A DNA stretch of 64,000 nt from Sthenelais limicola (Eukaryota > Annelida > Polychaeta > Phyllodocida > Sigalionidae): assembly GCA_942159475.1 (NCBI GenBank), contig OW804095.1, positions 88,797,740 to 88,861,739 of the forward strand, read 5' to 3'. Shown here piece after piece: positions 39,794-60,367 of the stretch. Below the pieces are notes generated by a model. The model worked only from the letters and a program-made list of their open reading frames with translations. It was not told the origin of the DNA and made no database searches. How positions within the stretch are numbered: the stretch's first letter is position 1; every line of letters starts with the position of its first letter. Both the position numbers and the translations under genes were made by a program.

Positions 39794-40859
39794 TTTATGT
39801 GATTCAAATATGCTATTAGCTATTATTCTTTTGTTGGAAAAAAAATATAATAAAGCCTTATTCGGTCTCAGGCCTTCATCCCGCATTCTGCGTCACATTG
39901 CGTACATTTGTGCATAATTTCTAAGCACTCTGGTGCCAAAAGTAATTGAGCTAAGTATGGGAAAGTATACATTTCCTGAAAGAGGAATATCGTTTCTATA
40001 TAATCAAACAGAAATAAAAGAAATGACATGATTTGTATAGACACTGCGAATGATGGAAGTAAGGAAGGGATGATTTCTGTCAATTGTTCATCCGTAGAAA
40101 ATGAAACCAATCTATATTATATGCGGTCAATTCCAGGATTTAATTGCAATTTTGACCTTTTTCACATTATCTGTTTATGTCATATCTTTATCTTTGTCAA
40201 TTCCGATTGTATAAGCATACACTTGGTATGTATGTATTCCTATGAATATGCCCCTTATTTCTAAAACCATTTTAAGGTTATAGAGATAATGAAGCCACAA
40301 GCCATCATAATGCCTGACACTCACGGTCACCTGTGCAGGGGTTTCTATGACTGAGTGTTAGCGAGCTGGTGTCAGATGTGCGACATTGAGTAGGTGTGAA
40401 TGTCAGCTGAGTATGAGTGACAGGAATTTGTGGTTTCGAGCATTGTGTTGTGTAACTTTATGGTACTTATTACATCTTGGTTTGTTGCGTTTATTAGTTC
40501 CAGTGAGGCTGACAATAGAATTTATTTAATTTATATAATGAGTATTTAGACGCGATTTTGAATGCGCATTATATGCGCGATTGTGATCACACCCATATTA
40601 TTAACTTTTAAAGAAAACATGTATTCATAGATAGAATTGGTTGAGAAACACATGTGTAATACATAGATAAATGAATATGAATGAGAACTTGGTCCAACAC
40701 AAATGTGAGATCACCAACAACATGGGAGGAAATAAACGCAATGTATTTCCCATAATGGTAGCTAATGGGATGTCCATTTCACTGTGATTCAAAGCCATAC
40801 GTATCACATACACATCACACTTCACTAGTTTGAGGCCAATCACAAAATGATCACAGTGC
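39794..40859. other. Non-coding stretch between the gypsy element and element A
   Basis: No gene seen. A copy of the 5325 dispersed repeat lies at 40337-40486. Confidence 0.5.
40337..40486 (+). repeat. Dispersed repeat, copy 2 (partner 5325-5500)
   Basis: Same order of conserved blocks as at 5325, diverged. Confidence 0.65.
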
Positions 40860-43038
40860 CATCACACTCAATTGCACTCAGTGCCTGTCGGGTTGTACAT
40901 TCGATTGGATTCCTCCCAGTGACCGTTATTGCTGTGTCGTCAGCATAGACTGCAATATTTAATTCCAGTTCATTTTTTTGGTAATCTATTCTTTCTAAAC
41001 AAGTTGGTAAATCATTAATGTAAATTAAAAAAATTAACGGTCCTAAGAGGCTTCCCTGCGGTACACCGTTTTCGATTGTACATGGGTCAGATATGATATC
41101 ATTTAGTTTTGTCATCTGTCTTCTCTTATATAAATAATTCTCAACCAATCTAGTGATACAAGAATTAATATTATATCTTTCGAGCTTTAATCTGAGAACA
41201 TCATGATCAATACAATTAAAGGCTTTCGCCACATCATAATATGTGGCGGCAGTCACCTTTTTTCCATCAATTCCTCTAAGAATCGGATTCAGAAAGTCAT
41301 AAACACTGCGATTAGTAGAATGGTTTTTCCTGAACCCCCCCTTGTTTGCTAGAGAAATAATGATTAAATTCCATATGATCTATTAAAGCTCGACAAATAA
41401 AATGTTCTAATAATTTTGATGGTAAAGGTACAATAGCAATAGGTCTTAAGTTTGACAGCTCTCTAGGATTCTTATTTTTGGGAATCGGGGTAATACAAAA
41501 TTCCTTCCATTCCTGAGGGATATGGCCATAGGAGACACACTTCTTCAATAAAAAGGTAGTCTCTCTCAGCATATAAATCAGGAAAAACTTCAAAATCTTT
41601 GAGCTGACCCAGCTAAAACCGCTACTCTTATTTTCATCAATACCTTGGAGATATTCCAAGACCTTATCGCAATCTATTATAATCTTTGTAGAGGCAATAT
41701 GTTCTTGAGTATTGACCATGTAGTCTAAGGGATTCTTCCTCAGATTTATATCCACCTTACCCATGTTTTTAAACACAGTATTTAAGGTATTACTCGCTTC
41801 TCGACCTTTTATAACCCTACCATCATGTAGATAACTGTTTTGAGAAATTGATTTCTTTTTCCCAAGGAGATCGTTCAGTTTCCTCCAAAACTTTTTGCTG
41901 TTATTTTCACATGCAGTAAGAGAATCTAATATAAAGGAACGTTTAGCATTTCTAATAAGTTTGGCAGTGTTTCGCCTGGCCACTGTTGCTCTAATAAAGT
42001 CATCTTTCAATTTAGATCTCTTTGCGATTTTGAAAAGATTGTCTCTATTCCTAATCGCTTCAATACATTCTTGATTTAGGATTAGTTTACCCCTCCTTAT
42101 GACCGTTTTCTTTACATAGGGACATTTTTCATCCAGGTAGGCAGTTAACTTAGTTTTTAAGTTCGACCATATAATATCAGGCTCTGGATTTTCTTCAGGA
42201 ATAATCATATCATCAGTCGATAATTTGTTACAATAGGTCTTAAAATTTAACATATCAATTCGTCCATAATTTCGCGACAGTTTCACTTGTTTGTCGATCA
42301 TACTCTTGCCTTTTTTTATGTTTATGAAGACAGCATTGTGGTCAGATATATTCATCTCTAATACACCTGAGGTGGTGACATGGGGATAATTTGATGCCAT
42401 GATATCCAACAAACTACTTTTACCTATCATTTGCCGAGTATCCTCAGAGATGAATTGATTTAGTGACATTTCTCCCAACAAATGCTTAAATTCAATTACT
42501 GAATCATTTTTTTATCGTTCATGTCGATATTTATATCACCGCATAGCAGTATATTTCCATGCCGACATCTCTCTTTGACCGAATTCAAAATATTCTGCAA
42601 ATGCTCAATAAATGATCTCTTATTCCCTGACGGCGGGCGATATGTATTACAGAGTATTATTGATTTCCTATTACCAGGTTTACATTTGATTATTTGGGTC
42701 TCAATGTTCTCATTACATACATTTAGGTCAGAGAACACCCACGGGTCTGCCTGATATGTATTATCGATAAAACAACCCAAACCACCTACCTTTTTGATCT
42801 CATTACTAGACAAGGTAGAACGATCCTCTCTGAAAAGATTAAAGCGGTTTCCAAATAATAACTGGCTATCAGCATCTGCTTTGGTCAACCAGGTCTCCTG
42901 TAATAATAGTATATTTGTATTTTTACCTAGGAGTGTATCATTAATCTCGCCTATTTTATTTCTTAGAGATCTTATATTTAGAGATAGAATCGTCAGTCCC
43001 TTGAGTTTAGAGAGTTCTGTCATATCAACCAATACCAT
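40860..43038 (-). pseudogene. Element A ORF2: endonuclease-reverse transcriptase, broken and 3'-truncated
   Basis: Minus strand, three frame pieces. 43038-42496 is an APE-type endonuclease start: LNIRSLRNK, QETWL (metal-binding Glu), YRPPSG and GDINIDM. 42481-41312 continues with NISDHNAVF (SDH catalytic box) and the RT fingers (LRPIAIVPLPSKLLEHFI). 41256-40840 has the palm: motif A YYDVAKAF, GVPQGSLLGPL and YADDTAITV (intact catalytic Asp pair). Frame switches fall in an A7 run near 42510 and a G7 run near 41335, typical of single-base slips. The RT then stops at RQALSAI, before the thumb. The remainder may be the fragment at 26399-27170. It belongs to the same element as the NADAR ORF1 upstream. 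Confidence 0.85.
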
Positions 43039-43955
43039 TGCGCTCCTCAGCCATTTTCACTAATATCAATACTTGGCAAACTCTTGAAACACATGAGCAT
43101 TCATGTAGCATGGTTCTAAGCAACAATAATAAGCGACAGTTAAAACAAACAATAGCCCAATATAAAAACAAGTTACAGAAATGTTCCCTCATTGGGGTAA
43201 GCAATGTGCTCATGTAACGTACGGCGACCGATTCTCTGACTATAAAACTAGCTGTCAAATTTTAACCACACTTCTTTGGTATTCACAATTTCCACATAAT
43301 GTGGGGATAGTAGGTACCATACATCAACAACAATCAAGACAAGTTTATGGTAGAAACCAGAAAGATACATACATAATTATTTTGTCATAATCCTCAAGGC
43401 GCGTGTAAAACTAACTTCATCCGCCATTTTGAATTGGTACCGCAGAAAATACACATCAAGCTCTTAATGGTAGAAAATAGTACCAACGTCGTATCGAGTC
43501 TTCAAACCCTCTATATTTAGGTCAAGAAAACAAATTTCCAGTTCTATAGTTAAATATCATAATATCAACTATCTAACAAAAGTGTACTAAATCCATCTAA
43601 GCAGGGAGAAAACTATTTTTGTGGAAATCAATCTCCTTGTGGGTGAACAACCTTGACCTATCTATTGACCTCGTGGAGGTTTGTTTGTAAACTTTTACAC
43701 ATGCGGACCCCTTCATAGGGATAACACTAGACGGAAATTGGGTCAAATCCCATAGACCAGTATATATCGAAACATTATTTTAAATATAAACCTCATGAAT
43801 AATCAAGTATAATACCATACATTGACACATTTAGAAACATAGCAGATATTTTAGAGAGTGAGATCGATCAGCGAGGTAAAATCACTTCCGTCCGCCATTA
43901 GCTATTTGGTGTTGACGGAGGAGCACGTTACTTTTAGTTTTAGTTCTAGTTCATC
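43039..43955. other. Spacer between ORF1 and ORF2 of element A
   Basis: About 0.9 kb without an ORF. The long ORF1-ORF2 spacer resembles that of element C, but I did not find its hairpin motif here. Confidence 0.6.
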
Positions 43956-45777
43956 CTACTTCTTTCCTTTTCTTGGCTTTGTGCGTCGAGTGTTCATATT
44001 ATGCTCGGTGATAGTTTCATCAAGTGATATGGCCACTCTGCTCATATCCAGACGAAAGAGTCCAGCTGCAGGCGATTTCTTTGCACTCGCCGGGGTACTA
44101 GTTTTACTTGTTGGCTGTTTTACGTCAGTATTCTCCGATTCAACTTCCATCTCAATAGCAGAACTGTCATCACTGGAATACTGCTCATCGCTCGAGTCCT
44201 CGTCCATGGATGTGTTGAGATTGCAACCCTTCATGGAGGTGAGTTGCCTATTTGTATTCAGTATCTTTTCTTCTGATGCAGGCGACTTCTCGAAAACTCT
44301 GCGATGCTTCATATTTCTTGATTTGGGCGAAAGCTTGGAGGGGGTGACGACCGGAGGGGGCGGGGACGTAATCGTAACCTCATTCAGTTTGTTTTGGTAC
44401 TTTTCTTGCATTTCCTCTCTGATCTCCATCAAAATCTTGCCCTGCTTATTAAATCCAGACGTGTCCCAAGTATGGGTGCGAAGGTGAACAGAGCCTAAGA
44501 AATAACCACACCCCCAGAAACGATCTCCAGTCGCTTCCACCAATTCAATATCACCAGTTTCTAGGAGCAACTTGCGAATCGCAGAATTTTGGTCGAACTT
44601 TAGGCAAATGATTGACTTCATATATTGCGCTTCTTTCGACTTCCATTCGTCGTTGACTGATAATTTGGAGCCCTTCTCTTTGATCTGAAAAGGATCCCTC
44701 ATAGAATAAATAGTGCGAGATGCGGCGAAATGTCCATTGTATAGCGCCTTCTTGTACATGAAACAATGTTCTACCAATGTAAATTCAAGCTTCTTCATTC
44801 TTATCTTGGTGTTATACAGGTTACTCGGCCACACATGTTGCCCGTGGTACGCGATGACCCCACCCACCTTCTGGACTTTGATGTTTGCTGGTTGAATTTC
44901 TACTGGGATGCAATCGAGTTCATTTACAGTGTAGGTCTTTCCTTTAATCTCTACCTTGTCCCCCTTTGCTTTAGCGTATAAGTCGATCTTCTTTTCAGAG
45001 GCTTGCTTGGCAATTTGTCTTAAGAGATTTCCATCGTACGTCCGGGTTTAAATCGTCTTCGAACAACCAGAACTTATGAGAGGGGAACTGGTCATCTGGG
45101 AAAACTGAATGATCAAAAATTCTGGCTTTGTTTGCCAGAAACATCTTCTTGTCACTCAGGGCGATGAAGTTAACCATAATGGGATCGGGCCTGTTTGAGT
45201 ATGTCCTATTCTTACTGGTAAGCCTGTATACCTTGTCCAACCTACCGGGGTTAAATTCTGGTAATGCAAGTTTAATAATTTCGGTACACGTATCAATTAG
45301 ATCCACATTATGCCTGCCTCTCACACCATTGAATATCAGAGACTTTTGTCTCAGCCTCGTATCAAAATCGTTGTTCATTTCTTTTTGTATTTTAAGTTTG
45401 TATTGTAAGTTATCAACGGTTGACTCAAGCGACTTCACTTGCTTGATTAGATCTTTGGTCAAGCGTTTCATCTCTACCTTGTCTTGAATTTCATCACCAT
45501 GTGATTTCGTTAAGTCATCTAAAAAGTCTTTAGTTTTGGTAGCATATTCGGCGAGTTCATTATGGCTCAATACTAGTTGGGGGAAAGTAACCCCTTCGCT
45601 TTCCGACCCAGCCATTTCTTGTGACTTTTCAGTAGTAACACTCGGATCAGAGTTTATATCAACAGGGATGTCAACACTAATATCTTTGCTTGCTTTTTTA
45701 TGTACAGGTGAAGTTCCTTCAGATCCAGAAGCTTTCCTTTTTCCATAGGCCAGATCAGATTGTAGGTTGACACTCAT
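43956..45777 (-). pseudogene. Element A ORF1: coiled coil, RRM-like and C-terminal NADAR domain (one frameshift)
   Basis: Two adjoining frames. 45777-44995 (260 aa): basic/acidic leader, heptad-rich coiled coil (KDFLDDLTKSHGDEIQDKVE onward), then an L1-like RRM segment starting QKSLIFNGVRG and ending NPDVR. A one-base shift near 45040 moves into the frame that runs through QIAKQASEKKIDLYAKAKGD and GKTYTVNEL into 44867-43956. There the NADAR domain begins: VIAYHGQHVWPSNLYN, LVEHCFMYKKA (Glu-His pair), LKFDQNSAIRKLLLETGDIE, LVEATGDRFWGCGYFLG and GKILMEIREEM, the classic YbiA signature order. The tail is acidic (SSDEQYSSDDSS) and ends in basic residues. NADAR proteins act on ADP-ribose/NAD-related substrates, and bacterial members remove ADP-ribose from guanine in DNA. 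In this copy one indel separates the RNA-binding half from the NADAR half. Confidence 0.85.
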
Positions 45778-47039
45778 TCTTTACGACCATTGACCAGCGT
45801 GTGACAGACTGTCATCTTGTGACTTCGATGTAAACAAGGGCGATGATTGAGGAAGGCGGGAATATGTACACACAATCCCCTATTACCGTTCACTTCGGAG
45901 GATCGAACTATAACCACAGTGACAGATTATAGCTAATAAACATCCAAAGTTCATTCAAGATGTTCCTGGAGTCTTCAGTAAACGGTATGTCTTAAAATTT
46001 TTCGGTAAAATCCAATATTTAGTCTTTTAAATCGGTTGTGTGCCTCAGCCTAGTAATACACGTCCGTACGTACCACCGTCATCGCCACTTCAGGATTGAT
46101 AGCTCACGCCCTACTCAAATCTCTAACTTTAACAGGACAGTGGAGAAATCCAAAGATCTGTAAGTAGCTGCAACTGCTGCTTGATTGTCGTGGATCATTA
46201 TATGTCTTGTATGGTGTCTTAGTGTTTTTGCAATATTAAACGATGTTGAGAACTTCTGCCTCAAGGGAGCAAGCCCATCTTGGCTGCCATGTGCTCCTGA
46301 GAGGATTGAAACTTAGGTCCAAGGTCTGGATACCTCTTTCCCTATGGAAATTTCCATAAGCGAGTGTTTCGCCATGTGTACAGTACAGTACAGTACAGTT
46401 GCACGCATCTTGTTTGGGTGTGGTGTCAACACCTTGGGGGCAAATGAGTAGTGGCTGCACCGAATAGCTAAGTGAGCAAACCAGGCTATATAAGGCTCTG
46501 GGGTTTGACAACCAGCAATTAATGTGTGCAACCACGAGTGTTGCACGACTCTCACTTACGTTTAGCTGTGTGCTGGTTACTTTGCTAGTTACGCTGCTCT
46601 AGTGTCTGTCAGAATTTTTTGTTGTTTCCTCTTTTCCTACAGAACATGATGGGCGCTTGGTGCTGATAGTTCTACTGAAGCTGACTGGACTAACAGCCAA
46701 AAGTCAGTTTCTATGTCACGCCTGTGGATCTAAATTCTACTGTGGATCTAAATTCTAATCCATTCAGGATACCAAGATGGCCGCATAGTAAGATGCCTGA
46801 TCGTATCGAGGAAATTTAAATCGACAATCTATCGGAATGCAGCTGATCAGAGAGTAGCGATCTATATCAATGCAGCTCTGTTTGTGAATATAGAAAACAG
46901 ACTTTGTACGATATATTGGATAATTGGGACGATTACCGATATATGAGACAATTTTAAATATACCCAATCCAAGGTGAGCGATAGTGGGGTACATAGCCTG
47001 AGTTTGCCGCCAGTAACCACGGTAAACAAACACTGAACA
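45778..47039. other. Region between the divergent elements A and B
   Basis: It should contain the 5' UTRs of A (minus) and B (plus). Overlapping minus-strand frames (46236-46555, 46764-47188) look non-coding. No shared promoter motif is visible to me. Confidence 0.5.
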
Positions 47040-48523
47040 ATGGGCGCAGGCAGGGGCCATCGTAGAAAGAAGAGAAAACAGGCACAAGTCACATCACAAT
47101 CACCCCAAAGTGAATCAGGAGAAGTATCTTCAGTATATAACCCAGCCATGTCTGCTGAGATGGATACCTTACGCACACAGATGGCCACGTTTTTAACGAA
47201 ACAGAAAGAGTTTCAGGAATCCGTGGAGAAAAGACTGGATGACGAAAAAACTGAAATGAAAGTGTCTATTGAAAGTAACTCGAATTTTGTCAATGATCTA
47301 ATCCTGGACTTAGACGGTGAAATTTCAAAGAGACGAGAACTGGAGAATGTGGTATTTGACGTGAAACGAGAGAGTGATTATACGAAACAAGATATCAACT
47401 GTTTGAAAAATCAGATTGACGTATGTGAAACAATGACAAAGGAGAACTATATGGAAATCGAAGGATTAGAGTTCTACAAGGGAGAAAGCCCTAAAGATAA
47501 GGTAGTAAGTCTTTGTCAATTGTTAATTCCTCACTTCACTCATGACCTTGTCCAGAAAGCCTACAGACAAGGGTATCAAAAAGGGAAAATACCACCGAAA
47601 ATGATGGTAAAACTAACAAACATAGGTATCAAAGAAGAACTAATCAGAGGTCAAAAGGTGCTAAAAGACAGAATGAAATTGGGACAGAGATACAATTACC
47701 TTAAATTCGTTAAGCTGAATAATGTGTTGCCTTGAGTTCAGCAAAAACGTAGCCTGGCACATCAAATCGCAAAAAGGGCTATAGCGATTGGATATAAAGA
47801 AGAAGAAACAAGGGCCAAAGGTGACCAACTGATGGTAAAATATATGATAATAGCCTTCTTGAAACCATCCCAGAAGACGTCCTGCCTGAGACCACGAAAG
47901 TAGTGCCCGTTGATGGAGGCTATGCTTTCCAGGGGGAGCGAGCCTTTCTCTCGAACTTCTATAATGTTAAATTTATATATGAGGAGTTTGAGTATACATC
48001 GTCTGAGCAAGCTTACTTTGCCAAGAAAGCAGAGGTGCTTCAAAAGGATCGGTTAAGGTCAAAGATTACCAATTCAAGAGACCCTAGGATGTGTAATAGA
48101 TACGGAGAAGCAATTCCCACAAATGCCAACTGGGATGCAATGGCTGATTCAGAGATGAAGAAAATCATAGTGGCCAAATTCGAACAGAATGAAGTGCTAA
48201 GGAGAAAACTAGTGGGCCTAGGTAAACGCGAACTGATTGAGGCCACTCCGAATATGAAATATGGTGCTGGCTGTTACCTTGGCAATTATAGACTAGACGA
48301 CCACTCATGGGGGGGTGGTAATCTGCTAGGCAAGATGCTTATGGAGGTTAGGGAAAACATGAGAGCAAGATACCCCCTCGATGAACCAATATCACCGATC
48401 CGTAAACATAGGGATCATTTGGTCTTCAAATATAACAAAGTAGCAAAGAAAGATGCGAGACGAGTGGTGCCACTAGGAAATGATTCTGAAGTTATCATGG
48501 AATACATCAAGGAAAGAGGATAA
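47040..48523 (+). pseudogene. Element B ORF1: coiled coil, RRM-like and C-terminal NADAR domain (stop and frameshift)
   Basis: 47040-47735 (231 aa) has a Lys/Arg-rich start, a coiled coil (MDTLRTQMATFLTKQKEFQE and on) and an RRM-like part (YMEIEGLEFYKGESPKDK). A TGA at 47733-47735 interrupts it, and the same frame goes on with HQIAKRAIAIGYKEEE and AKGDQL. A shift near 47828 leads into 47903-48523, the NADAR domain: FQGERAFLSNFYN, YTSSEQAYFAKKA (Glu-Gln instead of Glu-His), AKFEQNEVLRRKLV, LIEATPNMKYGAGCYLG and GGNLLGKMLMEVREN. Domain order and the Gly-Asp linker before NADAR match element A, although overall identity is low. An acidic tail may continue in another frame to about 48725. No ORF2 follows. 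Confidence 0.85.
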
Positions 48524-50616
48524 TGAAAGAAACGAAGAAGATAAAGAAGACCGAGCCATTGCTCCAACCCAAGCTGAGTCCATAACAAGTAATCTCGTCC
48601 ACGATGACCCATCGAGAGAACAAGAAGAAGAAGACAGAGATCGTAGAATTGACCAAGTGATGGATTACGGTGACCAACACTTTTCCTCCAGAACCCTGCC
48701 ACTCCAAAACCTTTTTCCCCATTAATCACTTCCCCCCTATACTTTTTCGCCCCACCTGCAATTCACGCACACACATGTATACTCATGTACCTGTTCGCAC
48801 CACACCTATAGCACACTCCGTTTTTCCCCAGGCTTGTCCCTCGGGCAGCACTGCTTTGTATGGCTGGCACCCAGGCCCATAAAAAGGCGTCCTCTCCCTT
48901 GGGTGAAACAGTGTTCTGAGTACCGCTCACCACTGGCCCAATAGACAGCCTCTTTTAAAAGTGTGTGTGTGTGGGGGGGGGGGGGGGGGGCAGGGGGAGG
49001 GAAGTGGGGGGAGTACTTGAATCATACATACATGTACATTTAGAGAAAATGTTTTATTCTCAATAAAATACAAAGATGCATTCAAATCGGAGCATTCTAT
49101 AGCTCTGACTTTTCATTCAATTTTGCTAGCCGAATTAGTGGGTAATTTACCCCAATCTTAAACTAAATTGTTTGGTTAATTAAGTTTGATATGGGCAAAA
49201 CAAGGCAAAATAATAGGGAAAATATAGGTATATGAAGCATAGGTGTAGGAATCGAAATAATTGTCACAGCCTTCCCAAACTTGTTCTGCATTATACCGAT
49301 ATTCCCTGCTATATGTACCCCAAAGGTTGTAGAGATTGAATGTATTCTATTTTTTCTAAATTAATGGCCTCCTGAAATCAAATGCTTCGCATTTGGGAGA
49401 GTTACAGCAATATGACTATTTCAGAACTTGAATATCAACTTGCTTCTCACTCCAATATCAACTTGCTTCTCACTCCATGTTGATTCTGTTCTGACTCACT
49501 CCTAATTTCTTTCAATTCCGAATTCCTAACTAACTATGCATAAGGTAAACAAACATTTTATACAGTATTAACATCATGGTACTCTGCAGTAACCAAGGAG
49601 TAACCAAGAAGAATTCTCTAAAGCTAATATATGATTGGAGAAACAGAAAGTACAGGGGTCACATGATCGTTGCACAAGCTAAACAGAGAAATATACACAA
49701 GTGTAGCTGTTGGGCTATTACATGTTTACATACTAATATGAATATTTAAAATTATTACCAACACAGAAGCGAGAAATTGTCTACACATCAAAATTTTTAA
49801 AAATCATTCAGAAAAATAAACAGACATTTAGCATTATGCCTACACCTTGGAAATTAGAGATAAGTGTATGAATGTGTATGTATTTCCCCTGTAATTTCTT
49901 TGTAAGAACCTGACAAAAATAGCAATACTATTCTGACATTGTGAGATATAATTTTAAGCCTAAATTCGTTCAAGCATCTGTTAATATCTACTTTTAGATA
50001 CAAACTCAACGAATTCTCAAATGTTCATCTGTAAAGACCAGTAGATGAGACTGAATTCAGTTGCCCATAGCAACGGCGTTTTAAAGCATAAAGGGGGGGG
50101 GGGGGGGAGACTTGTAACATACAGGTACATTTTGAGAAAATGTTTATCTTAATTAAAAAAATATTTATTCAAATCAGTGTATTCTAAGTGGAGCAGTGAG
50201 GGGATATTAGAACCATTCCCTCTGGCAGTCAGATTCATAAACATTGCAAACCGATACCATGTTATATATAAATATATATCATACAATTGTTTCGTATACT
50301 AACAATAAGCAACATGGCTGTATAGCTTATAGGCTGAACTACCAAAATTTTTCCTTATTACCCCCTCCCCATATGCCAACACATGCAAGGACTTGAAGAA
50401 GCAATTAATGTGCACAATGATATTAGAATGAGTCATTACAGTTGACCAGCAGTATGTTCTATTTTTTTCCTAAAGAATTCATATAAATTCCATTTTCTAG
50501 AATACCTTAAAACAACCAAGTCAACAATGTAGGAGACATTAGAAGCTAACTTATTGAACACAACAACTTTTTAGTTAGGCCCTGATTAGATTATGAAAAG
50601 ACATCAAATAAATAAT

Positions 50617-50810
50617 CATATATTTAAGCAATTGCGAACCATGTATTGGTCTAAAACCTATCACCCATGTCTTGCCCCTGATAAGCACCCTTATGGTGGG
50701 GCAGTCTGCAATCATACATAGACATGGCAAGGAGGTTCTGATCTTTCATTAAAATCTATATTTATTCAGATCGGACCATTTTAAGTGAGGATTTAAAGCT
50801 TTCTTTCCCT
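50617..50810 (+). repeat. Diverged direct repeat, copy 1 (partner 51052-51230)
   Basis: Shared blocks are TATATTTAAGCAATTG, CATGTNTTGCCCCT, CAAGGAGGTTCTG and TCGGACCATTT, in the same order 435 bp apart. Confidence 0.7.
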
Positions 50811-51051
50811 TTAAAATGTCCCTTTTTGGTATTACCAGGGATATAATGAGCTATTGTTTCTACCATTTCTCGCTTTTGATAGGTCTGAAATAAAATCATT
50901 TGTCACCAAAATAATGTCTGAAATAATCTCCAAATGCTTATTTGAATTTATGGAAAAAATATCAGTTTTTGTAATTGTCGCTAGCTAGGTATTATCGATT
51001 GGAGGTGAATATTCATTGTTGAGCAATAATTTATTGTTCCTTGGATTGTTT

Positions 51052-51230
51052 TCATATATTTAAGCAATTGTGAACGATGTATTTGTCTAAAATATATCAC
51101 TCATGTGTTGCCCCTAATAACCCCCTTATCAAAGATGGGGCAATGCGCAAGGAGGTTCTGCTCTTTAATAAAAATCAAGATTTATTCAAATCGGACCATT
51201 TCAAGGGAGGATTTACAAATTTTCTTTCCA
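51052..51230 (+). repeat. Diverged direct repeat, copy 2
   Basis: See 50617-50810. Two more distant relatives start at about 49020 and 50105. Confidence 0.7.
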
Positions 51231-52064
51231 GTTACAACTAAGATATTTCCAGATTTTGGCATTACCTGGTATGTTCAGTGGGTTCAGTGGGTTCAATCTG
51301 AATATAAAATATATCACAGAAATTCCCTGACTGTCAGGAAGACAGCCCTGCTTTCAGATTTAAAATCTGACGATTAGTTTTGTCGTAATAAATAATTTCC
51401 GTCGGCCGCATCAAGTCGTTCGAATCAATATAAAACGTATTTTATATCGTTATTTTACAATGATATTTTTCAAAGTGATTCATTCACAAGATCTCTTTTT
51501 TGGAATGTTCCTATTTTTGGAGGGATTATTGCTTTTAGTCATATACATATGTGTACCAAATCTCAAAACATTGCATTGAATATATCATTGCGTTTTACAT
51601 ATTTCCCGTGCTCCGTCCGGTGCCGCGTGAATAAATCACTTTGAAAAACTTTGAAATTTAAAAAAGATTGTGGGAGCTACAGACGGATTATTATAGCTCC
51701 CAGTGCAAGCTTGATTTAGCTTTTCCTACCTGCTCTTGTACATGTACTTTCTTGTATTATTTAATGAAAGAAATTATATCAGTTCTCTGACTTTGTCCCT
51801 TCCCAGATATTCTAAGAAATAACAATTAATTCTAGATGATTCCTGCTTTTAGAAATCGCATTTTTAGCATGTCATTCGTAATCTATCGCGATAGATTATG
51901 TATACATTTTAATCACATGTATAAGAGAAATAACAATATATCTGAGTATTTTGGTCGATGTAACCTATCAAGACATGGACAATGATCATGTATGCCAAAG
52001 ATGGTAGCTTATACTTTATTATTTATTAATCAAACGTATACACCAAGTTTTAAACGAGAAGGGG

Positions 52065-52135
52065 TTTAGCGCTGTAGAAATATGTTATATAGTATCCGTG
52101 CGACGATCAAGAAAAAAGGTAGAAGAAAGAAGTCT
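52065..52135 (+). repeat. Short direct repeat outside element C (partner 60090-60155)
   Basis: GGGGTTTAGYGCTGTAGAAA and TATGTTATATAGT recur nearly unchanged at 60090, on the other side of element C and in the same orientation. The copies differ at several positions, so this is a dispersed repeat rather than a fresh target duplication. Confidence 0.65.
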
Positions 52136-52553
52136 ATAATGATGTTTCCCAATTTACGAGGCACGGGCAGCCGCGATGACAAGTCGCACATGAACTGAGC
52201 TCCGCAAGAGCCGACTCAATTCGGAGTTTATCTATATATACTGCTATATTTTCCTGGATAATTTTCTAGTACACGCTAATACTGGACTTTGTGTTGTACC
52301 TGAAGGTATTTTTTACCTTGGATTGTGTTTTATTATTTACTTATAACGGTTTTACTACTGGGAGTACACAGTGCATGCTAGAGCCACTACAAACATGGCG
52401 TGCCGTCCACCTTACACAGAATTGGATCTAATGGCTTTTGAACAATACCGTTGGGAAGAAGCCCGTAAAGCAGCTCAGAGACAATATGGATATACATCCC
52501 CTCCTCTGAGATCGCCACCACCATTTATGCCTACGCAAACAACCCAAATGTCT

Positions 52554-53360
52554 GTATAATAATAATAATAGATTTTTATTTCCATATTACATTTACAACA
52601 ATTGTTATACAATGTAGAATTAAAAGAGAGAAACCTATGGAAAGAGGAATAATCTCTGTGACAGTCACAGCTCTTCCGAATATCCCTTAAATTTTGTTTT
52701 ATTTTGCTATCCCTATTGTTTGTACATCTATTTCTAGTTAAAATATAGACAGTGTCTAATATTGGACCTGCCTGCTACACAACAGTATAATGTAATTACA
52801 AAATAAAGTAAAATCAAGGCTAACTAAGTGAATAAAATAAAGTGAAAGTAAGAATCAAGGGTAAACTTGTTCATCGCTGTCCCTTTCTGGTGCATTAGCT
52901 TTACAGGCTAGATATGTGTACAGAGGTGGTTCTATATCGTTAGTCAGATAATATTGACTAATGAATGACAACATTGACAGAAATCCGCTTGTAGCTTGCG
53001 ACTAGCGAACAGCTAGTAAGAAATATACCTGAGTGTTGAGTCTTATTGCTATATAGTATAGGAGCTCTGGATATAGGTATATATGCCTACTGGTATAGTA
53101 CCACTCCATTATAGGGATAAGCCTATACATTATATGCTACTGCATCTCCAACTCTAAGACTATAAGATCTTATAGTCTTAGAGTTGGAGATGCAGTAGCA
53201 TATAATGTATAGGCTTATCCCTATAATGGAGTGGTACTATACCAGTAGGCATATATACCTATATCCAGAGCTCCTATACTATATAGCAATAAGACTCAAC
53301 ACTCAGGTATATTTCTTACTAGCTGTTCGCTAGTCGCAAGCTACAAGCGGACTTGGTATA
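52554..53360 (-). mobile_element. Non-LTR retroelement insertion inside element C ORF1, with a fold-back 5' end
   Basis: GTATA at 52554-52558 and 53356-53360 is the target duplication. Read on the minus strand, the insert ends TGGAAATAAAAATC plus a (TAT)n run, typical of a LINE or SINE 3' end. Its 5' end is a 368-bp perfect palindrome. Removing the insert and one GTATA leaves ORF1 in frame. I see no coding capacity. Confidence 0.8.
52984..53351. repeat. 368-bp perfect palindrome with no spacer
   Basis: I compared the two 184-bp arms line by line and found no mismatch. The centre lies between 53167 and 53168 (AAGA|TCTT). The arm adjoining the unique part of the insert (52984-53167) is probably the original and 53168-53351 the inverted copy. 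Confidence 0.95.
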
Positions 53361-54959
53361 TGGACCAAATGGAAGCGTTTCATCTGCATCGATTGTCAAC
53401 TCCCAGGCCTCTCTACAGACAGCACAACCTACCCTGACCCAGGCATCCAGTCAGTTAAGTCGTTCATCTACCTCAGTTTCCTCTCCCCCGAAACCTGTTG
53501 TAAATACTAAATTATCTGATGGTAGTCGTGACTTTATTATTGATGAACTTAGGCAGAGCATGTACAAAATCCAAATCTCCCTAGGCAAGCTTGCCGATGC
53601 AAATTCTGGTATTGAATCTAGAGTAAACTCGATTGCTGCAGCTAACACGACGATTGAAAATAGGGTCAACATGATTGACTCCAAACTAGATAATATTCAG
53701 GCGATAAATGAAAGGCTTCACTCTGACAATCTTTCTTTGGGAGGGACCATCGGTGAATATTGCCAACGTATCCCCCAGCTAGAGGGAACAGTGGCTGCGC
53801 ATGATAACAGCTTGGTGAGACACAAGGACAGAATCTCTAGAATTGAGGAAAGTCTGTCGTCTAAATCCCGACCTAATCCTAACCAGCCCCCATCTATGAT
53901 CAACCCACCCACGATCAACCCTGCTGATAATAATACTTTAGTTTATGCGAATCAGAACCAACAAGCACCCGATTCAAGGGATCTGAGTCTAATAATCAAG
54001 GGTATTTTCGAACCACCAAATGAAGTTATGGCAAATACGATCGATGCATTCTTCAATAATATTCGCTTGAATATCAGCTACGTACAAACGGCTGGTGCAA
54101 GCCGGCTAGGCTTATACGATCAAGAGCAAGCCCAAGCCGCTGATACACTAAATGCCACAGAAGGTAAGCCAAAGTACGGTAGGCCAATAAAATTACAATT
54201 GCTCTCCCTAACTAACAAAGTCAATCTCTTTAAACAGCTGTCTGCCAACCGAAATAATCCATTGCTCAATGGAATCAGGGCATTTAATGATCTGACCAAA
54301 AGTGACCAGCTACTTGAAAAGGAAGCAAAAGCCTTTGCCACCGCTGCTCGCTTGAATGGTAAGAGGGCAGTTGTTAGAGGCATGTCATGTGTTATTGAAG
54401 GAACAACATACGTGGCCGGGGACTATGATAATCTTCCTATTGGAATAACAAAATCGAATGCCTCCACCCTGGACACGCCTGACGGAACGGCCTTTCAAGG
54501 CCATATGAGCCCGCTGTCCAACTTGTATAATTGCGAGCTAACAGCAGATGATAGTACTGTAGTCAATTCGTCAGAACAGCTATATCAATTATCCAAAGCC
54601 GTTGCCGCCAAAGCCAATCAAGAGCTCATTGAGAAATTAAAAGTAGTTAAAAATCCCTATACGATCAAGAGACTTGCACGCAAAATTCCCACCAATAAGG
54701 AGTGGAATGCCGAAACCCAATTGACCAAATGCGCAAGAGCGAAATTTGATGCCCACCCCGAGCTAAAGACTTTTCTCATGAGTCTGAAGCAAGGAAATAT
54801 ATACGAGGCTACGTATGAATTTCCCTACGGTTGTGGTTTCACCTTAGCGCAATCCAGAACCATAACAGCTGATAGGGTTGATGACGACAGAAACCTATTC
54901 GGAAAGATTCTGATGGACTTGAGAAATCATTATTCTTGAACCTCTCCTAATCCTATACA

Positions 54960-55613
54960 ATGGCAAGATTTCAAATCCTAATCCTAGGTGACTCAAGGGT
55001 GAAGCATTGGAAACCAATCATTGCTGAATATGCACTAACATATGATTGTTCCGATCTTGATATCGCATGTCTAGCTGTTCCTGGAGGGAATTGCGAAAGC
55101 ATAACTGACCAAGCAATCATACACTATGATTCCATGCAGTTTGACTTATTATATTTTTGCGGTGGCATCAACAACCTGTCCATCAAACTAAAATATAAGC
55201 AAATTGTCCCTGCGCTTCAAGATTCTTCATCTCTGACTGCAATGGTCTACGAAGATATATTCCGTGAACTTCCACGCCTAGGGGCCCTGGCAAGGGCTTT
55301 AATAATATGCGAGGTTGTTGGTCTTTCGTTCGACAATTATAATATTTGCACTATTACCTCACAAGTCGAGCAGAATATTATTGACGAGACAATATATAAC
55401 CTGAATAAGCTAATAAGAAAGCTAAATAGAGCCAGACGTGTCATCACCCCCCACTTTGAAGCCCATGTTCATAAAATAAGACATGGATATATCTCACATA
55501 GATACTCAGCCACCACGACGGATGGAATTCACTACAATAGTACTACCAACCGGAAATTTGTCATGAAGCTATTCTCCACTTTCTATCGCAATATACACCC
55601 GCTCTGCGAATAA
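54960..55613 (+). CDS. Element C SGNH-hydrolase-like ORF
   Basis: 217 aa from an ATG, 20 bp after the ORF1 stop. The SGNH/GDSL blocks are visible: block I GDSRV (Ser12), a Gly block PGGN (about 41-44), block III CGGINN (about 67-72, Asn) and block V DGIHYN (Asp188, His191). The Ser-Asn-Asp-His set is thus complete. Esterase-like domains of this fold are known within ORF1 proteins of CR1-type LINEs; here it is a separate short ORF downstream of a NADAR-type ORF1. The length is that of a single SGNH domain without a signal peptide. Close spacing suggests reinitiation or a shared transcript. The substrate is unknown; lipid or acyl-ester binding is the usual assumption. Confidence 0.8.
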   Translation: MARFQILILGDSRVKHWKPIIAEYALTYDCSDLDIACLAVPGGNCESITDQAIIHYDSMQFDLLYFCGGINNLSIKLKYKQIVPALQDSSSLTAMVYEDIFRELPRLGALARALIICEVVGLSFDNYNICTITSQVEQNIIDETIYNLNKLIRKLNRARRVITPHFEAHVHKIRHGYISHRYSATTTDGIHYNSTTNRKFVMKLFSTFYRNIHPLCE

Positions 55614-55632
55614 TTATTATACCGGAGTGACT

Positions 55633-55661
55633 CTCCTCACACAAATTCTTGTGACTAGGAG
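55633..55661 (+). other. Element C hairpin 1
   Basis: CTCCT-CA-CACAA-attc-TTGTG-ACT-AGGAG: inner stem CACAA/TTGTG and outer stem CTCCT/AGGAG, with the invariant CA and ACT internal loop. Confidence 0.75.
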
Positions 55662-55780
55662 CTAAGTTCAATCCTTTTTTTCCCATCTATGTTTAGTAGA
55701 TAAATATATTTCACTTCATGGGATGGTGTAAACTTATATTTCATGCGCTTATTAGCCCTAATGTATATACCCATTAGTAT

Positions 55781-55812
55781 ATCTCCCCACACTGAGCTAG
55801 TGACTTGGAGAT
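55781..55812 (+). other. Element C hairpin 2
   Basis: Inner stem CACT/AGTG with loop GAGCT, internal loop CA/ACT, and outer stem ATCTCC/GGAGAT. Confidence 0.75.
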
Positions 55813-56009
55813 CTGACGTTGATTATTTTTCTGATTATGATTCTGTTTTTCTGTTCTTGACTTTGATATAGAGAATGACACTTGATACGGTCGTTAATCT
55901 GGATCTACTTGAGGATCTTTTGTGCTAATCTAACTTGTGTCTACTAATACCTGATACATATAATGAATTATACCTGAATAATAGCCTTTCAAAAAACTAT
56001 TATTTTTAA

Positions 56010-56038
56010 CTCCTCACACTTATGACAGTGACTCGGAG
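56010..56038 (+). other. Element C hairpin 3
   Basis: Inner stem CACT/AGTG with loop TATGAC, internal loop CA/ACT, and outer stem CTCC/GGAG. Confidence 0.7.
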
Positions 56039-56115
56039 CTCGGAATATTCTGAATAATTTAATATCTTGAGTAATCTAAAGGAGAAAATCTGTTCCTAAG
56101 CAATTTACTCCTTTT

Positions 56116-56368
56116 ACTCCTCACACTACACCCTAGTGACTAGGAGTTAACCAATCAATTGTTTGATGTAGTATGTATTATGCATGGAATTATACTATAA
56201 TGTTATTACCTCTAGTAATTGCGGGACTCAATCCAGCTCTCCTCACACTACACCCTAGTGACTAGGAGTTAACCAATCAATTGTTTGATGTAGCATGTAT
56301 TATGTATTATGCATGGAGTTATACTATAATGTTATTACCTCTAGTAACTGCGGGACCCAATCCAGCTC
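56116..56368 (+). repeat. 122-bp tandem duplication, each unit starting with a hairpin
   Basis: The units start at 56117 and 56239. Both begin with CTCCT-CA-CACTA-caccc-TAGTG-ACT-AGGAG, followed by GTTAACCAATCAATTG. The second unit has a 7-bp internal expansion (extra TATTATG-like word). The units lie in the spacer before ORF2. Confidence 0.85.
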
Positions 56369-56546
56369 TTAAATCTCCGATGATGAGTTGGTTCACTGAT
56401 ACCGTCTTGACCTCCGTCGGTCCCTTCTTCTGATTCCCGGCTGCCCCCGGCTGTGCGTTTGCAGTCAGCCGCCCCTGCCCCCCCCCCCCTTTGTTTTTAT
56501 AAATTTTTAGTTTTTATCTATTTTTATATTTCTTTATTTTTCCATA

Positions 56547-59401
56547 ATGTCTCTTGCTAACAAAAAGAATGGCCTCATGCTCTATCACCTAAACTGTCAA
56601 AGCTTATGTAACAAATTCGATACTGTAAAACAAAATATACTCCTTCTCAAGCCCTATTTTATCTCCCTATCCGAAACTTGGCTTAGCACCCCCTACCCTG
56701 ATCAACTCATTAATATACCAAACTACAACCTAATTAGACTTGATCGCACCTTTCTGCTGCCAAACTCCTCGACTATCAAGAAAGGAGGAGGCTTACTATG
56801 TTATATTAAATCAGATCTAAATTATAGAAGACTATCTGATCTAGACCAATCAACTAGTGATATCGAATTGTTATCAATTCAACTACTTCCAAAAAACCTT
56901 AAGCCTATGACTATTTTCTTAGTCTATCGCCCTCCATCAGGTACTATTGAATCCTTCATTAGCAAATTGAATGATATCTTAGCATCAAATCCATGTGATC
57001 CCTCAGATCATGAAACTTTTATGATGGGTGATTTTAATATAAATTATGCGAATAACTCTTGCCCGGACAAGAAGAAGCTATCCTTATTTGCTCAGCATAA
57101 TGGACTACAACAGTTGATCAATGTTAACACACGTTCTGCCATTAGGAATGGTACTATCTCCTCTACCACCAAGATCTAATACTAACAGACTCAACATGTG
57201 TCTCTGACAGTGGAACAATACATCATAATATAAGCGACCATGAAGCTATCTATATGATCAGGAAGAAAATAAAAACAAAGAAAACCTTTACGATTAAAAA
57301 AGCTCGCTCATATAAGAATTTTAACTCGTTGGCTTTCCAGCAGAGCTTAAGAAAGTCATTCCAGAGAAATGAATTTATGGCTCTCTCTAACCCTAATGAT
57401 TCATGGAATTATATCTTATCCTGTATCACTGCTACTCTCGATGACTTATGTCCACTTAAAAATATTAAGGTCAATGACACAAATGACCCCTGGTTCACTA
57501 GGGATATTCTAGAACTGATAACAAAAGAGAATGCAGCTAGGAAAAAAGCAAGAAAATTGGGTACTACTGACAGCTTCCTGGAAGCAAAGATTCTCAAGAA
57601 AGAAGTAAATATTAAACTTAAGAATGCTAAAAGAAACTACTTTCTAAACACTCTACGTGACACGAAAGATCCCAAAAAATACTGGAAGACTATAAATTCT
57701 ATCTTTCCTTCCAAGCCAACTACATCTCATCTAAATCTCAATGATAACAACAATATGCCTGTCCCTAATGAAGACCGACCTGATTTTATTAATCAATATT
57801 TCGCAAATATAACAGATAATCTTCTAACTAATGCACCCAAAACTCCCATGACAAATACTGACCAAAAAGTCAACTCCCAATTATCGGACATCACGACCAA
57901 TGAAATTGAAGTGCTTGCTCTTATACGAAACATCAATACTAATAAATCCTCTGCCATTGAACATATCTCAAGCAATGTATTAAAAGATGCATTTACTACG
58001 CTCTTACCTGAACTAACTCACTGTTTTAATTTGTCTTTGTCCACTCATATATTCCCTTGTGCATGGAAAACAGCTACTGTTGTCCCGCTTTTCAAAGGAG
58101 GAGATAATACGATATTAAATAATTACAGACCTATTTCTTTACTTCCAACACCAAGTAAATTAATCGAAAAGATAATCCACACCAGAATACTAGCATACTT
58201 AACAAATCATCAGCTACTTGACACCCATCAAGCAGGCTTCTTGCGTGGAAATTCAACTACTGATACTATTAGTAAGTTAACTGACCAATTAGCAATCAAT
58301 TTAGAAAATAAACTCCCAACTTTACTTACATATGTGGACTTCCGCAAAGCTTTTGATTTAGTGGATCACGATATTCTTCTTGAAAAAACTAGACTTCTTG
58401 GTATTAAAGGTGGACTTCTTCTCTGGTTAAAATCCTACTTACAAAACAGAAATCAACGAACTATTGCAAATAATCTAACTTCTAACCTAGCGATGATTAA
58501 AACTGGTGTTCCCCAAGGGTCAATTTTGGGACCCCTGTTGTTTCTGATTTTTATTAATGACCTTGGTAGCTGTCTGGACTTCTGTAGTTATCTGCTGTAT
58601 GCAGACGACACCGTTTTATATCTCTCTGATAAATCACCTCAGACTCTAATTGCCAATATGCAACATGATATTGTAAACCTGTCCAACTGGTGTTCTCGTA
58701 ATTGTTTTCTTATTAACACTACTAAAACAAAAATTATGCTTGTGAACAAGAATCAGAAATTCCCTGATATTAATATTATGCTGAATGGTAGCAAACTTGA
58801 ACAGGTACAAACATACAAGTATTTAGGATATACCTTAGACGATCGACTAAATCACCAATATCATGTAAAAAACCTAATCAGGATTATCTCACATAAAATC
58901 TTTCTGCTTTTAAAAGTTCGTACTTTCCTAACAAAACCCGCAACTTTATTGGTCTTTAAGTCAAAAATACTACCTTTCTTCGACTATGGGGATATTATCT
59001 ACCATAACTCCCATCGTGCAAACATGGATAAACTTAAAAAATTACAAAACAAAGCCCTGAGAATTATACTACAACCCTTCAATAGACTTTCGACCTTAGA
59101 AACCCATAGAGATTTAAAGATCCCCTACCTATTTGACAGAAGAAAATTTCATCTTCAAACATATGCCCATAGAAGAAGTAAGATCGATATATATTGTGAC
59201 TTCACAAAAAACAGAAATACAAGAGCAAATGATGCCATACTTCTAACTTTACCCAAATTTAAAACAAAACTAGGTCGTATCTCTGTTCTTTTTAAAACTG
59301 CTTCAGCTTGGAATGAGCTATCACCTAGAACTCGAAACATTGCCAATGTAGAGACCTTCAAATCACTTCAACACAAACTTCTCTATAAAACAATAACTTA
59401 A
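56547..59401 (+). pseudogene. Element C ORF2: endonuclease-reverse transcriptase (one frameshift)
   Basis: 56547-57179 (210 aa) is the APE-type endonuclease: LNCQSLCNK, SETWLS, YRPPSG and MGDFNINY. A one-base slip near 57170 moves to the frame of 57254-59401 (715 aa); the NISDHEAIYM box lies in that second frame. The RT has YRPISLLPTPSKLIEKII, TYVDFRKAFDLVDHD (motif A), GVPQGSILGPLLFLIFINDL and YADDTVLYL (about 58598-58609, both Asp present). The thumb block YKYLGYTLDDRLNHQYHVKN and the C-terminal PRTRNIANVETFKSLQHKL follow. It is of the CR1/jockey-related group by look, and I do not assign a clade. Apart from the single slip it appears complete. Confidence 0.9.
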
Positions 59402-59840
59402 TTATCTGTTCCCTTTCCACTTGCCATGCTTGGATCACACTCTATGATAGTGACTACTCCTTGCCTTCCGATCTTATGTACACCTTTAAACTATCTGTTT
59501 CCCTCTCTTCTTGCTCATGCTTGGATCACACTCAATGTTAGTGATTATTCCTTGCATTCTGATTTTTTATTACACTTTTGCAGTCATTCGTTTTCCATTT
59601 GTATTCAAATATTTCCAAATACGATTGTAACTAGACTTACCTAACAGGTAATAATGTGTCTGAATTGCTACTATCTATGCTCTTGATTGTAATAACATGA
59701 CCACACTCTATGACAGTGACTATTCATTGAATCTATTGGCCCTATCTTTTTGTAAACTGGGCGCATTAGAAGATCCTGGAAGTTCTGGGACAGTGTCAAC
59801 CCAGTGTAAATAAAATCTTAAAAAAAAAAAAAAAAAAAAC
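59402..59840 (+). other. Element C 3' UTR with three hairpins and a poly(A) tail
   Basis: The core CA-CACT-N7-AGTG-A(C/T)T occurs at 59436-59455, 59527-59546 and 59702-59721. The flanking stems differ from those upstream (GGA/TCC twice, ATGA/TCAT once) but still pair. The element ends AATAAAATCTT followed by about 20 A (59821-59840). This marks the 3' boundary and the orientation of element C. Confidence 0.8.
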
Positions 59841-60367
59841 CTTTACACATTTGAGTGGACATATGTAGCCATTTAAAACAGTTTTTTTTAAAACAAAATC
59901 GTAGATAAATCTTGAAGGTGAGAAGTGATCGTGTTATACTAGGGGGGCCAGGTTGTATATAATTGATGTTTCCTTAATGGGATGGAATAAAACCCTGTGT
60001 TATGATTTTCTATGGTTTATTCACTTCAAAATCGTAGATAGTTTTTGTGGTACAAGCCGGAACATTTAGACTAATTATTTCCGCGGGAGGGGTTTAGTGC
60101 TGTAGAAATATGTTATATAGTGTCTGTGCGACAATCAGGAAAAAAGGTAGAAAAAATAACTCCAAACAAATGTAACTTTTACAGGTTCGAGAAGATATAT
60201 GCAGCTATGCAATACAATTTAAATTTCAAAAAAGTGATGGCTAGTTTTTAAGATAGAGGTCAAAACGCATAGACCACATTATTTCCGCAAATCAATGCTT
60301 AGGACAGAAGGGAGTTGGAGCGACGGTCTCGGTAGAATGCACCTGGCACACAGCGCAGTGAAGTGGG
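59841..60367. other. Non-coding stretch between elements C and D
   Basis: No gene seen. AAAATCGTAGATA occurs twice (about 59896 and 60029). Copy 2 of the 52065 repeat lies at 60090-60155. Confidence 0.5.
60090..60155 (+). repeat. Short direct repeat, copy 2 (partner 52065-52135)
   Basis: Same orientation; shared blocks are given at 52065. Confidence 0.65.

Follow-up and report, generated by a model that had tools for sequence, protein, structure and literature searches.

Three different non-LTR elements (A, B and C) in the window, the whole 64,000-nt stretch of Sthenelais limicola DNA analysed here, each have an ORF1 with a NADAR domain. The same fusion is abundant in the genome, is linked to a downstream endonuclease-reverse transcriptase (EN-RT) with which it shares a history, and its NADAR retains the active-site residues and is under constraint. 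We interpret the elements as CR1-like LINEs whose ORF1p combines a LINE-1-type RNA-coating protein with a YbiA-type NADAR that may act as a self-protection (counter-modification) module, a reading to which we give about an even chance. NADAR in LINE ORF1p is already in print and hence not unreported: it was noted in 2025 for 'Tx1' LINEs of Crassostrea gigas (Repbase), whose ORF1 proteins carry it, and, in addition, for Ectocarpus Gypsy Pol (PMC12477816). The remark of an earlier, sequence-only reading that it knew of no described retrotransposon group defined by this fusion is therefore not supported as it stands. Among the literature matches listed (a scope that left Repbase and most subscription papers outside), no other report of NADAR in retroelements was found.

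NADAR domains in the ORF1s of three LINEs

NADAR was defined by Pfam family PF08719 (gathering cut-off 35.1 bits), and matches were obtained in the frames 43959-45047(-) of A (96.8 bits, E 2.1e-27), 47825-48520(+) of B (95.8 bits, E 4.4e-27) and 53323-54936(+) of C (54.8 bits, E 1.8e-14), so that a chance match is ruled out (E 1.8e-14 or better in each case). Exactly these three domains were matched among the 1475 stop-to-stop pieces of at least 25 aa in the window by a 28-domain NADAR profile, of which A, B and C are themselves member rows. The sequence-only reading had thus recognized the domain correctly in all three ORF1s, and its coordinates for them were accurate; it had also placed the NADAR at the C-terminus, which is literally so in C alone, since the frame continues beyond the domain for about 150 aa in A and about 55 aa in B. 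All three copies are broken in the window.

The ORF1 of C (53323-54939, + strand) comprises a coiled coil (~53518-53859), an RRM (~53986-54288), a CTD-like part and the NADAR (~54490-54924), and structure prediction returned the same architecture (coiled coil, LINE-1-like RRM-CTD, NADAR). Coiled coil, RRM and CTD are arranged as in LINE-1 ORF1p, and by profile and fold the first half belongs to type II (CC-RRM-CTD) of the five LINE ORF1 types (I-V), among which no NADAR type appears in the accessible text of PMC4120745. The stretch 52395-52558 (+), read directly, is probably the N-terminus of this ORF1, severed (from ~52395) from the remainder by an inserted segment with a palindrome in it (190-bp arms, 52978-53357; 99.5% self-complementary over 374 bp); the relative C5:111012177 has a frame of 647 aa, compared to 538 aa in the C ORF1 of the window. 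Downstream on the + strand follow an SGNH hydrolase-type ORF (54951-55613), an endonuclease that is frameshifted relative to the RT (56511-57179; Exo_endo_phos 25.2 bits, cut-off 24.5), the RT (57146-59401; RVT_1 120.2 bits) and a 3' UTR (59402-59839) that ends in AATAAAATCTT and an A-rich tail. This 3' end is common to 6/6 copies examined (the window and L033-L037), the flanks beyond being unrelated, and RT copies with 97-98% identity were present among 60 scored of 26366 candidates. NADAR-free full-length relatives were sought at five loci, taken from the 26 C-type RT copies for which no ORF1 had been scored: in three the homology ends ahead of ORF1, as 5' truncation would produce, one has the NADAR ORF1 and one gave no match.

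SGNH/GDSL hydrolases are characterized by a Ser in block I, a Gly in block III, and an Asp and a His in block V. The motif residues are invariant in 10/10 SGNH-type ORFs, including S15, D191 and H194; in C the motifs read DSR, GGI and DGxH. The frame was found in 11 of the 20 sampled loci (9 of these 11 are rows of the SGNH profile itself) and is lacking in L024, although L024 is grouped 'sgnh' by lineage in the RT tree. No Pfam family matched in the three ORFs scanned, and a PDB profile match was weak (E 0.05). The ORF resembles ORF1 type IV; the esterase type is described as confined to vertebrate subgroups (PMC4120745), whereas here the SGNH-type frame is a separate ORF beside the NADAR ORF1.

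The ORF1 of B consists of two + strand frames separated by a frameshift, an N-terminal piece with coiled coil and RRM-like part (47037-47735; frame list and alignment) and a C-terminal piece with the NADAR (47825-48523, domain ~47924-48352). No EN-RT lies immediately 3' of it. The last stretch 3' of the NADAR (48428-48684, +) aligns to the relatives L043 and L044 (75% DNA identity to L044 3-261), and DNA alignment to the same two loci outlines an insert of about 11.8 kb (48669-60502, bounds approximate), which holds element C and is accompanied on either side, at 48660 and 60503, by the 9-bp ATGGATTAC. Beyond it, the sequence continues (60500-63999, +) with a spacer (60500-61096) and EN-RT frames (61095-63023 and 63283-63999) that run past the window end. 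Over 637 aa, this EN-RT (D; RVT_1 39.9 bits and Exo_endo_phos_2 32.3 bits, both over the Pfam cut-off) is 75% identical in amino acids to the ORF2 of 952 aa that follows the B-type ORF1 in L043 and L044. Judged from the relatives L043-L045, B makes up the 5' half of an element that has the EN-RT at 61095-63999, across the insert, as its ORF2; B as an orphan ORF1 was rejected accordingly. When 150 candidates for B-type ORF1 were scored, the 11 next-best copies were 78-85% identical, with frames of 559-734 aa in 10 of the 11.

Element A lies on the - strand. Its ORF1 is likewise in two frames, with a frameshift ahead of the NADAR piece: an N-terminal piece (44998-45780; coiled coil and RRM-like part), which aligns with the N-terminal part of the public protein P0001 and of the C ORF1, and the C-terminal piece (43959-45047; domain ~44418-44852). 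Of its putative ORF2, an endonuclease piece (42499-43056) reached 22.2 bits for Exo_endo_phos, under the 24.5 cut-off, and is 37% identical (115 bits) to the L021 ORF2, and RT-side pieces (40843-42511; frames 41315-42511 and 40843-41379) match the ORF2s of L012 (31%, 183 bits) and L021 (37%, 110 bits); the Pfam scan of frame 41315-42511 matched no family. In the genome, the top copies among 112 scored candidates for A-type ORF1 are 95% and 94% identical, with frames of 572 and 609 aa.

Relatives in the genome and among public proteins

NADAR ORF1s form a very large set, in part recently copied: a first look at the genome gave 5561 NADAR candidates, and all of the 150 scored were above the cut-off. 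An EN-RT follows the NADAR ORF1 on the same strand in 20/20 sampled loci (and in 2/4 extra rows chosen for short frames), as well as in 3/3 loci of B relatives. Among public proteins, the C ORF1 as query gave at least one match and an alignment of 16 ORF1s at least five, none of them named (best 8000 candidates scored in each search); the A piece gave no match. The frameshifts in A and B, and the lack of an RT immediately behind B, might be taken to indicate that host NADAR pseudogenes with no relation to the elements happen to lie next to retroelement sequence, the outcome that would have undone the earlier reading. But in relatives with long open frames ORF1 and NADAR share a single frame, the EN-RT linkage is found at every one of the sampled and B-type loci, and six public proteins from other sources show the same ORF1-NADAR order, which leaves this explanation with a negligible probability.

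RT lineages and joint history

About five RT lineages appear to carry the NADAR ORF1, and their RTs are by score nearer to CR1 than to L1. With a provisional CR1 reference, CR1 was the top score in 22/22 RTs, by at least 28 bits in 20 of these and by only 7 and 10 bits in the partial RTs L028 and D; 19 of the 20 loci and C scored 95-139 bits to this CR1 and 58-85 bits to L1. Over all RTs the L1 scores (39-85 bits) did not exceed that of L1 to R2 (82 bits) except in two rows (82.4 and 85.1), in a comparison with CR1, L1 and R2 as references. Tx1 is a clade of the L1 group. The C. gigas elements resemble ours in having a YbiA-family NADAR in a LINE ORF1p, but are labelled Tx1 (PMC12477816), while the RTs here score higher to the provisional CR1 reference than to L1. 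In Ectocarpus the NADAR has likewise been captured by a retroelement, albeit an LTR element (Gypsy) of another host group with the domain at the N-terminus of Pol (PMC12477816).

The RT tree was built from 19 elements together with 3 references, without the partial RTs of D, L017 and L028 and without A. CR1 falls among the NADAR lineages, in a position without settled support, and three of the five lineages are starred (ii, with 87/100, and iii, with 84/81, are not). The NADAR tree recovered lineages iv and v, while i, ii and iii did not each come out as one group, and the placement of its long branches (C, A, B, L012, P0001, P0005, P0006) is uncertain. NADAR and RT have a joint history, with a correlation that drops to r 0.38 under 60% NADAR identity (171 pairs). 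We propose tentatively, and well short of an even chance, that the NADAR ORF1p defines a large, old LINE group predating the split of the roughly five RT lineages and provides a portable eraser of guanine ADP-ribosylation. If so, this would point to ADP-ribosylation of the RNA, cDNA or nicked target DNA of retroelements as an unrecognized form of host defence, to which LINEs, Gypsy elements and RNA viruses would each have responded by arming themselves with a NADAR.

Active site and proposed role of the NADAR

Both active-site (distal-ribose) glutamates, the equivalents of E43 and E125, are kept in 33/33 NADAR domains. A last-strand Glu (E125) marks the YbiA type, as opposed to an Asp (BC4488) or a His (phage) (PMC11543638), and together with the YbiA fold of the domains it bears out the YbiA-type order seen in the earlier reading. 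The antitoxin/eraser enzymes YbiA, the DarT1-linked NADAR and the P. nicotianae NADAR (8bau) share this fold, the distal-ribose glutamates and the phosphate-binding K/R; unlike them, the NADAR here is joined to an ORF1p of the RNA-binding kind. Rescue of E. coli from DarT1 has been published for other NADARs. Pairwise comparison of relatives showed that sequence change in the NADAR is constrained, but not peculiarly so everywhere, because the upstream part is conserved equally or more in 2 of the 14 pairs having such a part. Since the domain is under constraint inside a self-copying RNP, the success of the element seems to depend on it.

The likeliest role is still that of an ADP-ribose eraser, with guanine of nucleic acid as the likelier target, which suggests that the elements guard their own nucleic acid from chemical modification. 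The reversal of guanine ADP-ribosylation invoked in the earlier reading applies to the NADARs characterized in PMC11543638, which strip ADP-ribose from guanine; E. coli YbiA works on riboflavin intermediates (PMC11543638), so guanine-ADPr is not the only NADAR substrate. Multimers of ORF1p would coat the element RNA and deliver the NADAR to wherever target-primed reverse transcription takes place. There it could cleave the N-glycosidic link of ADP-ribose to a base, most likely to guanine at N2; the base may belong to the RNA template, to newly made cDNA or to the target at the nick. Such adducts, derived from a host ADP-ribosyltransferase or from damage, would if uncleared halt reverse transcription or second-strand synthesis. 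If the domain does erase guanine ADP-ribose, a host enzyme should exist that places this mark on the nucleic acid of retroelements. A guanine ADP-ribosyltransferase, CARP-1, is known from clams (PMC11209040); a search of the genome for the Scabin-like ART PF22596 gave 0 matches, and the controls of the same search were also empty.

A catalytic NADAR could instead find its substrate among the products of a host response to viruses (NAD-capped RNA, ADP-ribosylated protein or small signals made of ADP-ribose), which has been suggested for the NADARs of viruses; we rank this possibility as fairly unlikely. Both RNA and DNA viruses repeatedly carry NADARs, with soluble or macromolecular ADPr as the proposed target (PMC9503650), and a stand-alone NADAR gene lies beside non-LINE ORFs at two places in the genome (L029, L030; by eye these may be Polinton/Maverick elements, which Pfam did not bear out, matching the NADAR alone and nothing in five neighbouring frames). 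The fusion to ORF1p, however, would place the substrate at the RNP or close to it, as a diffusing signal should need no tether. Less probable again is a simple housekeeping role, in which the NADAR, independently of host defence, keeps the surroundings of the RT clear of N-glycosidic adducts or of reactive metabolites of the riboflavin type; N-glycosidase activity of bacterial and plant NADARs on riboflavin intermediates (PMC11543638) is in line with this, but it leaves the presence of NADAR in LINE ORF1, Gypsy Pol, and RNA and DNA viruses unexplained, and we regard it as improbable.

That the NADAR counters host PARPs is unproven. Loss of PARP1/PARP2 reduces human L1 retrotransposition (PMC8535693), and PARPs therefore aid rather than block human L1. 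The same promotion of L1 insertion would suit a reader or RNP scaffold that binds ADP-ribose, RNA or host repair proteins, guides the element to DNA that is damaged or carries PARP marks, and can dispense with hydrolysis; the RNA-associated nematode protein SNA-3, with three NADARs, shows that the domain can take on RNP functions (PMC9303266). Yet a pure binder would hardly need glutamates invariant in 33/33 domains, and even in SNA-3 mutation of residues homologous to the catalytic ones of YbiA impaired function (PMC9303266), so an enzymatic role is possible there too; we consider a mere reader unlikely, ranking it below action on small signals or proteins and above housekeeping. The role of animal NADARs is described as an open question in the field (PMC11125620).

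Other positions of the domain vary, which weighs against the eraser reading. K50 is replaced by R throughout lineage v (6/6 rows); the K95R mutant of the E. coli C7 NADAR was active in vitro, yet gave no rescue from the toxin (PMC11543638). The D130 position holds a residue other than D in 7 of the 33 domains, and W133 is a Y in B and C.

NADAR domains in three LINE elements of the window

The window (G000:C2:88797740-88861739 of the 1.13-Gb genome) contains several retroelements. The sequence-only reading had placed a NADAR domain in the ORF1 proteins of three of them, A, B and C, and the Pfam NADAR family (PF08719, cut-off 35.1 bits) was matched above its cut-off at all three places (A, 96.8; B, 95.8; C, 54.8 bits); these were also the sole matches to a NADAR profile of 28 domains among 1475 six-frame pieces of the window. 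In single-sequence comparisons, A matched Escherichia coli YbiA (2b3w) with an E-value of 3.1e-6 but 8bau with only 0.028, and both matches of C were weak (8bau, 0.0013; 2b3w, 0.0026).

Element A lies on the minus strand, with ORF1 in two frames, an EN domain (42499-43056, Pfam score just below the cut-off) and RT-side frames (41315-42511 and 40843-41379; 31-37% identity to ORF2 of other elements), both its ORF1 and its ORF2 being frameshifted. Element C, on the plus strand, consists of ORF1, an SGNH-type ORF (54951-55613), EN, RT (RVT_1, 120 bits), a 3' UTR and an A-rich tail ending near 59839, and is broken by an insert in ORF1 and a frameshift in ORF2. Its 3' end is common to all six copies examined (one in the window and five elsewhere, 86-99% alike in this part) and the flanks beyond are unrelated; the copies are therefore separate insertions. 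A near-perfect palindrome with 190-bp arms (52978-53357), resembling a foldback or hairpin insertion, was seen within ORF1 of C, and a 75-bp direct repeat (89% identical) at 52060-52134, about 260-335 bp before the ORF1 start, and 60088-60162, about 250 bp past the tail.

Behind B, no RT was found in the window pieces ahead of the insert. In all three B relatives examined downstream (loci L043-L045) EN-RT directly follows ORF1, and the window EN-RT at 61095-63999 (D) shares 75% protein identity with ORF2 of L043 and L044 and 60% with that of L045. Window stretches 48428-48684 and 60500-61096 can moreover be aligned with neighbouring parts of L044. B and D are therefore a single element, split by about 11.8 kb containing C. 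The 9-bp ATGGATTAC occurs at both sides of this insert, either by chance or as a target-site duplication. Apart from the insert, B is broken by a frameshift in ORF1. The expectation of three separate elements with a NADAR-ORF1 was thus borne out: A with EN and RT-side frames, C with EN-RT, and B with EN-RT across the insert. Long-open copies of all three families are present elsewhere in the genome.

Linkage of NADAR and EN-RT in the genome

A search of the genome for the NADAR family gave 5561 first-look candidates, 150 of which were scored; every one exceeded the cut-off, 148 matched without a stop, and the frame was at least 500 aa long in 110 and shorter than 200 aa in 5. At 20 loci sampled from these (every 7th row, rows 1 to 134), an EN-RT frame lay behind NADAR on the same strand without exception (20/20). 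Four further rows, picked for short frames, comprised two decayed LINEs with EN-RT and two stand-alone NADAR genes beside other ORFs (L029:3048-3533, C1:94.85 Mb; L030:1533-2018, C1:66.98 Mb; 162 aa, 109 and 107 bits). By eye, the ORFs next to the latter two resemble genes of Polinton/Maverick-type elements, namely those for a protein-primed DNA polymerase and a packaging ATPase; Pfam gave no confirmation of either identity.

Among relatives of C, 60 RTs were scored (of 26366 candidates): in 34 of them a scored C-type ORF1 precedes the RT by no more than 15 kb on the same strand (spacing 1.4-4.4 kb in 31), and none had one on the opposite strand. Five of the other 26 were inspected; homology ended before ORF1 in three, as in 5' truncation, one has a NADAR ORF1 and one gave no match.

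The SGNH-type ORF was also seen between ORF1 and ORF2 at other loci (L010-L012, L014-L018, L023, L027, L028). In PMC4120745, esterase ORF1s were reported only from vertebrate subgroups, whereas here the ORF is a separate gene in LINEs with a NADAR ORF1. In L016 (4415-5584) and L023 (4486-5781) another ORF, about 390-432 aa long, separates the SGNH-type ORF from ORF2; the L023 copy matched no Pfam family above its cut-off.

Active site and constraint

The NADAR-ADPr complex of P. nicotianae uses E43, K50 and E125 (PMC11543638). These positions were mapped by alignment and by the E-to-K spacing of 7 in 33 rows (the 20 sampled loci, A, B, C, loci L029-L032, and six public proteins from elsewhere, P0001-P0006). 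E43 and E125 are kept in all 33; the K50 position holds K in 22, R in 10 and L in one (P0005), the D130 position D in 26, N in 5, and V and E in one each, and the W133 position W in 31, with Y in B and C.

In 22 of 23 pairs with more than 55% NADAR identity (the remaining pair being nearly identical), pN of the domain was 0.05-0.32 versus pS of 0.69-0.95. The tail behind NADAR is looser (pN 0.15-0.55; 20 diverged pairs having a tail), as is the part before it in 12 of 14 pairs; in the other two that part is as constrained as NADAR (L016/L023) or tighter (L021/L009). Saturation of pS left only two pairs for which a NADAR dN/dS could be calculated (0.07 and 0.11). The pN/pS pattern indicates constraint across element generations.

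RT affinity and history

The sequence taken to represent CR1 was the top-scoring reference for all 22 RT segments (57-139 bits, partial D left out, versus 50-85 for L1 and 44-71 for R2). Pfam found no RNase H in the two intact ORF2s scanned. About five lineages (i-v) can be told apart in the RT tree, of which three are starred; C sits next to L012 (84/81). Across 20 elements, NADAR and RT distances agree (Mantel r 0.86; 0 of 9999), and the agreement is weaker for the 171 distant pairs (r 0.38). In the NADAR tree lineages iv and v each hold together while i, ii and iii do not. A single old acquisition of NADAR followed by joint descent with the RT is the simplest reading, although several separate captures may have occurred instead.

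Prior reports and possible function

The sequence-only reading knew of no described retrotransposon group defined by this fusion. Joining NADAR to a LINE ORF1p is, however, already on record: PMC12477816 (Genome Biol 2025) describes an Ectocarpus Gypsy lineage whose Pol begins with NADAR and, from a query of Repbase, ORF1 proteins with the domain in Tx1 LINEs of Crassostrea gigas. We found no other report of NADAR in retroelements among the papers listed by the literature searches; the main text of a bivalve LINE paper (PMC10294476) contains no word starting with 'NAD'. As far as these searches show, the CR1-like RT lineages, the architecture in which NADAR follows the coiled coil, RRM and C-terminal domain of a LINE-1-type ORF1p, the scale within a single genome, the conserved active site and the constraint are new.

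RNA processing has been suggested as the role of retroelement NADAR (PMC12477816). Bacterial and oomycete NADARs strip ADP-ribose off guanine (PMC11543638, PMC11125620), and the authors of PMC11543638 point out that what NADARs act on when encoded outside DarT operons is not known. An ORF1p bearing such an enzyme would tether it to the RNA of the element and to the place of insertion, and the likeliest role would be removal of ADP-ribose adducts from RNA, cDNA or target DNA. DNA-guanine ADP-ribosyltransferases are known from clams (CARP-1; PMC11209040); a search of the present genome for the Scabin-like family gave no match, and neither did its controls. The counter-PARP role proposed in the sequence-only reading meets a difficulty, because human L1 is promoted by PARP1/2 (PMC8535693).

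Other retroelements in the window

Another LINE RT fragment (26622-27197, minus strand; 27-31% to C and L021) has no NADAR near it in the window. In a Gypsy-type LTR retrotransposon (29467-39335, minus strand), aspartyl protease, RT, RNase H and integrase share a frame of 1369 aa, which is preceded by a 757 aa frame and followed by one of 637 aa, both presumably part of the element.
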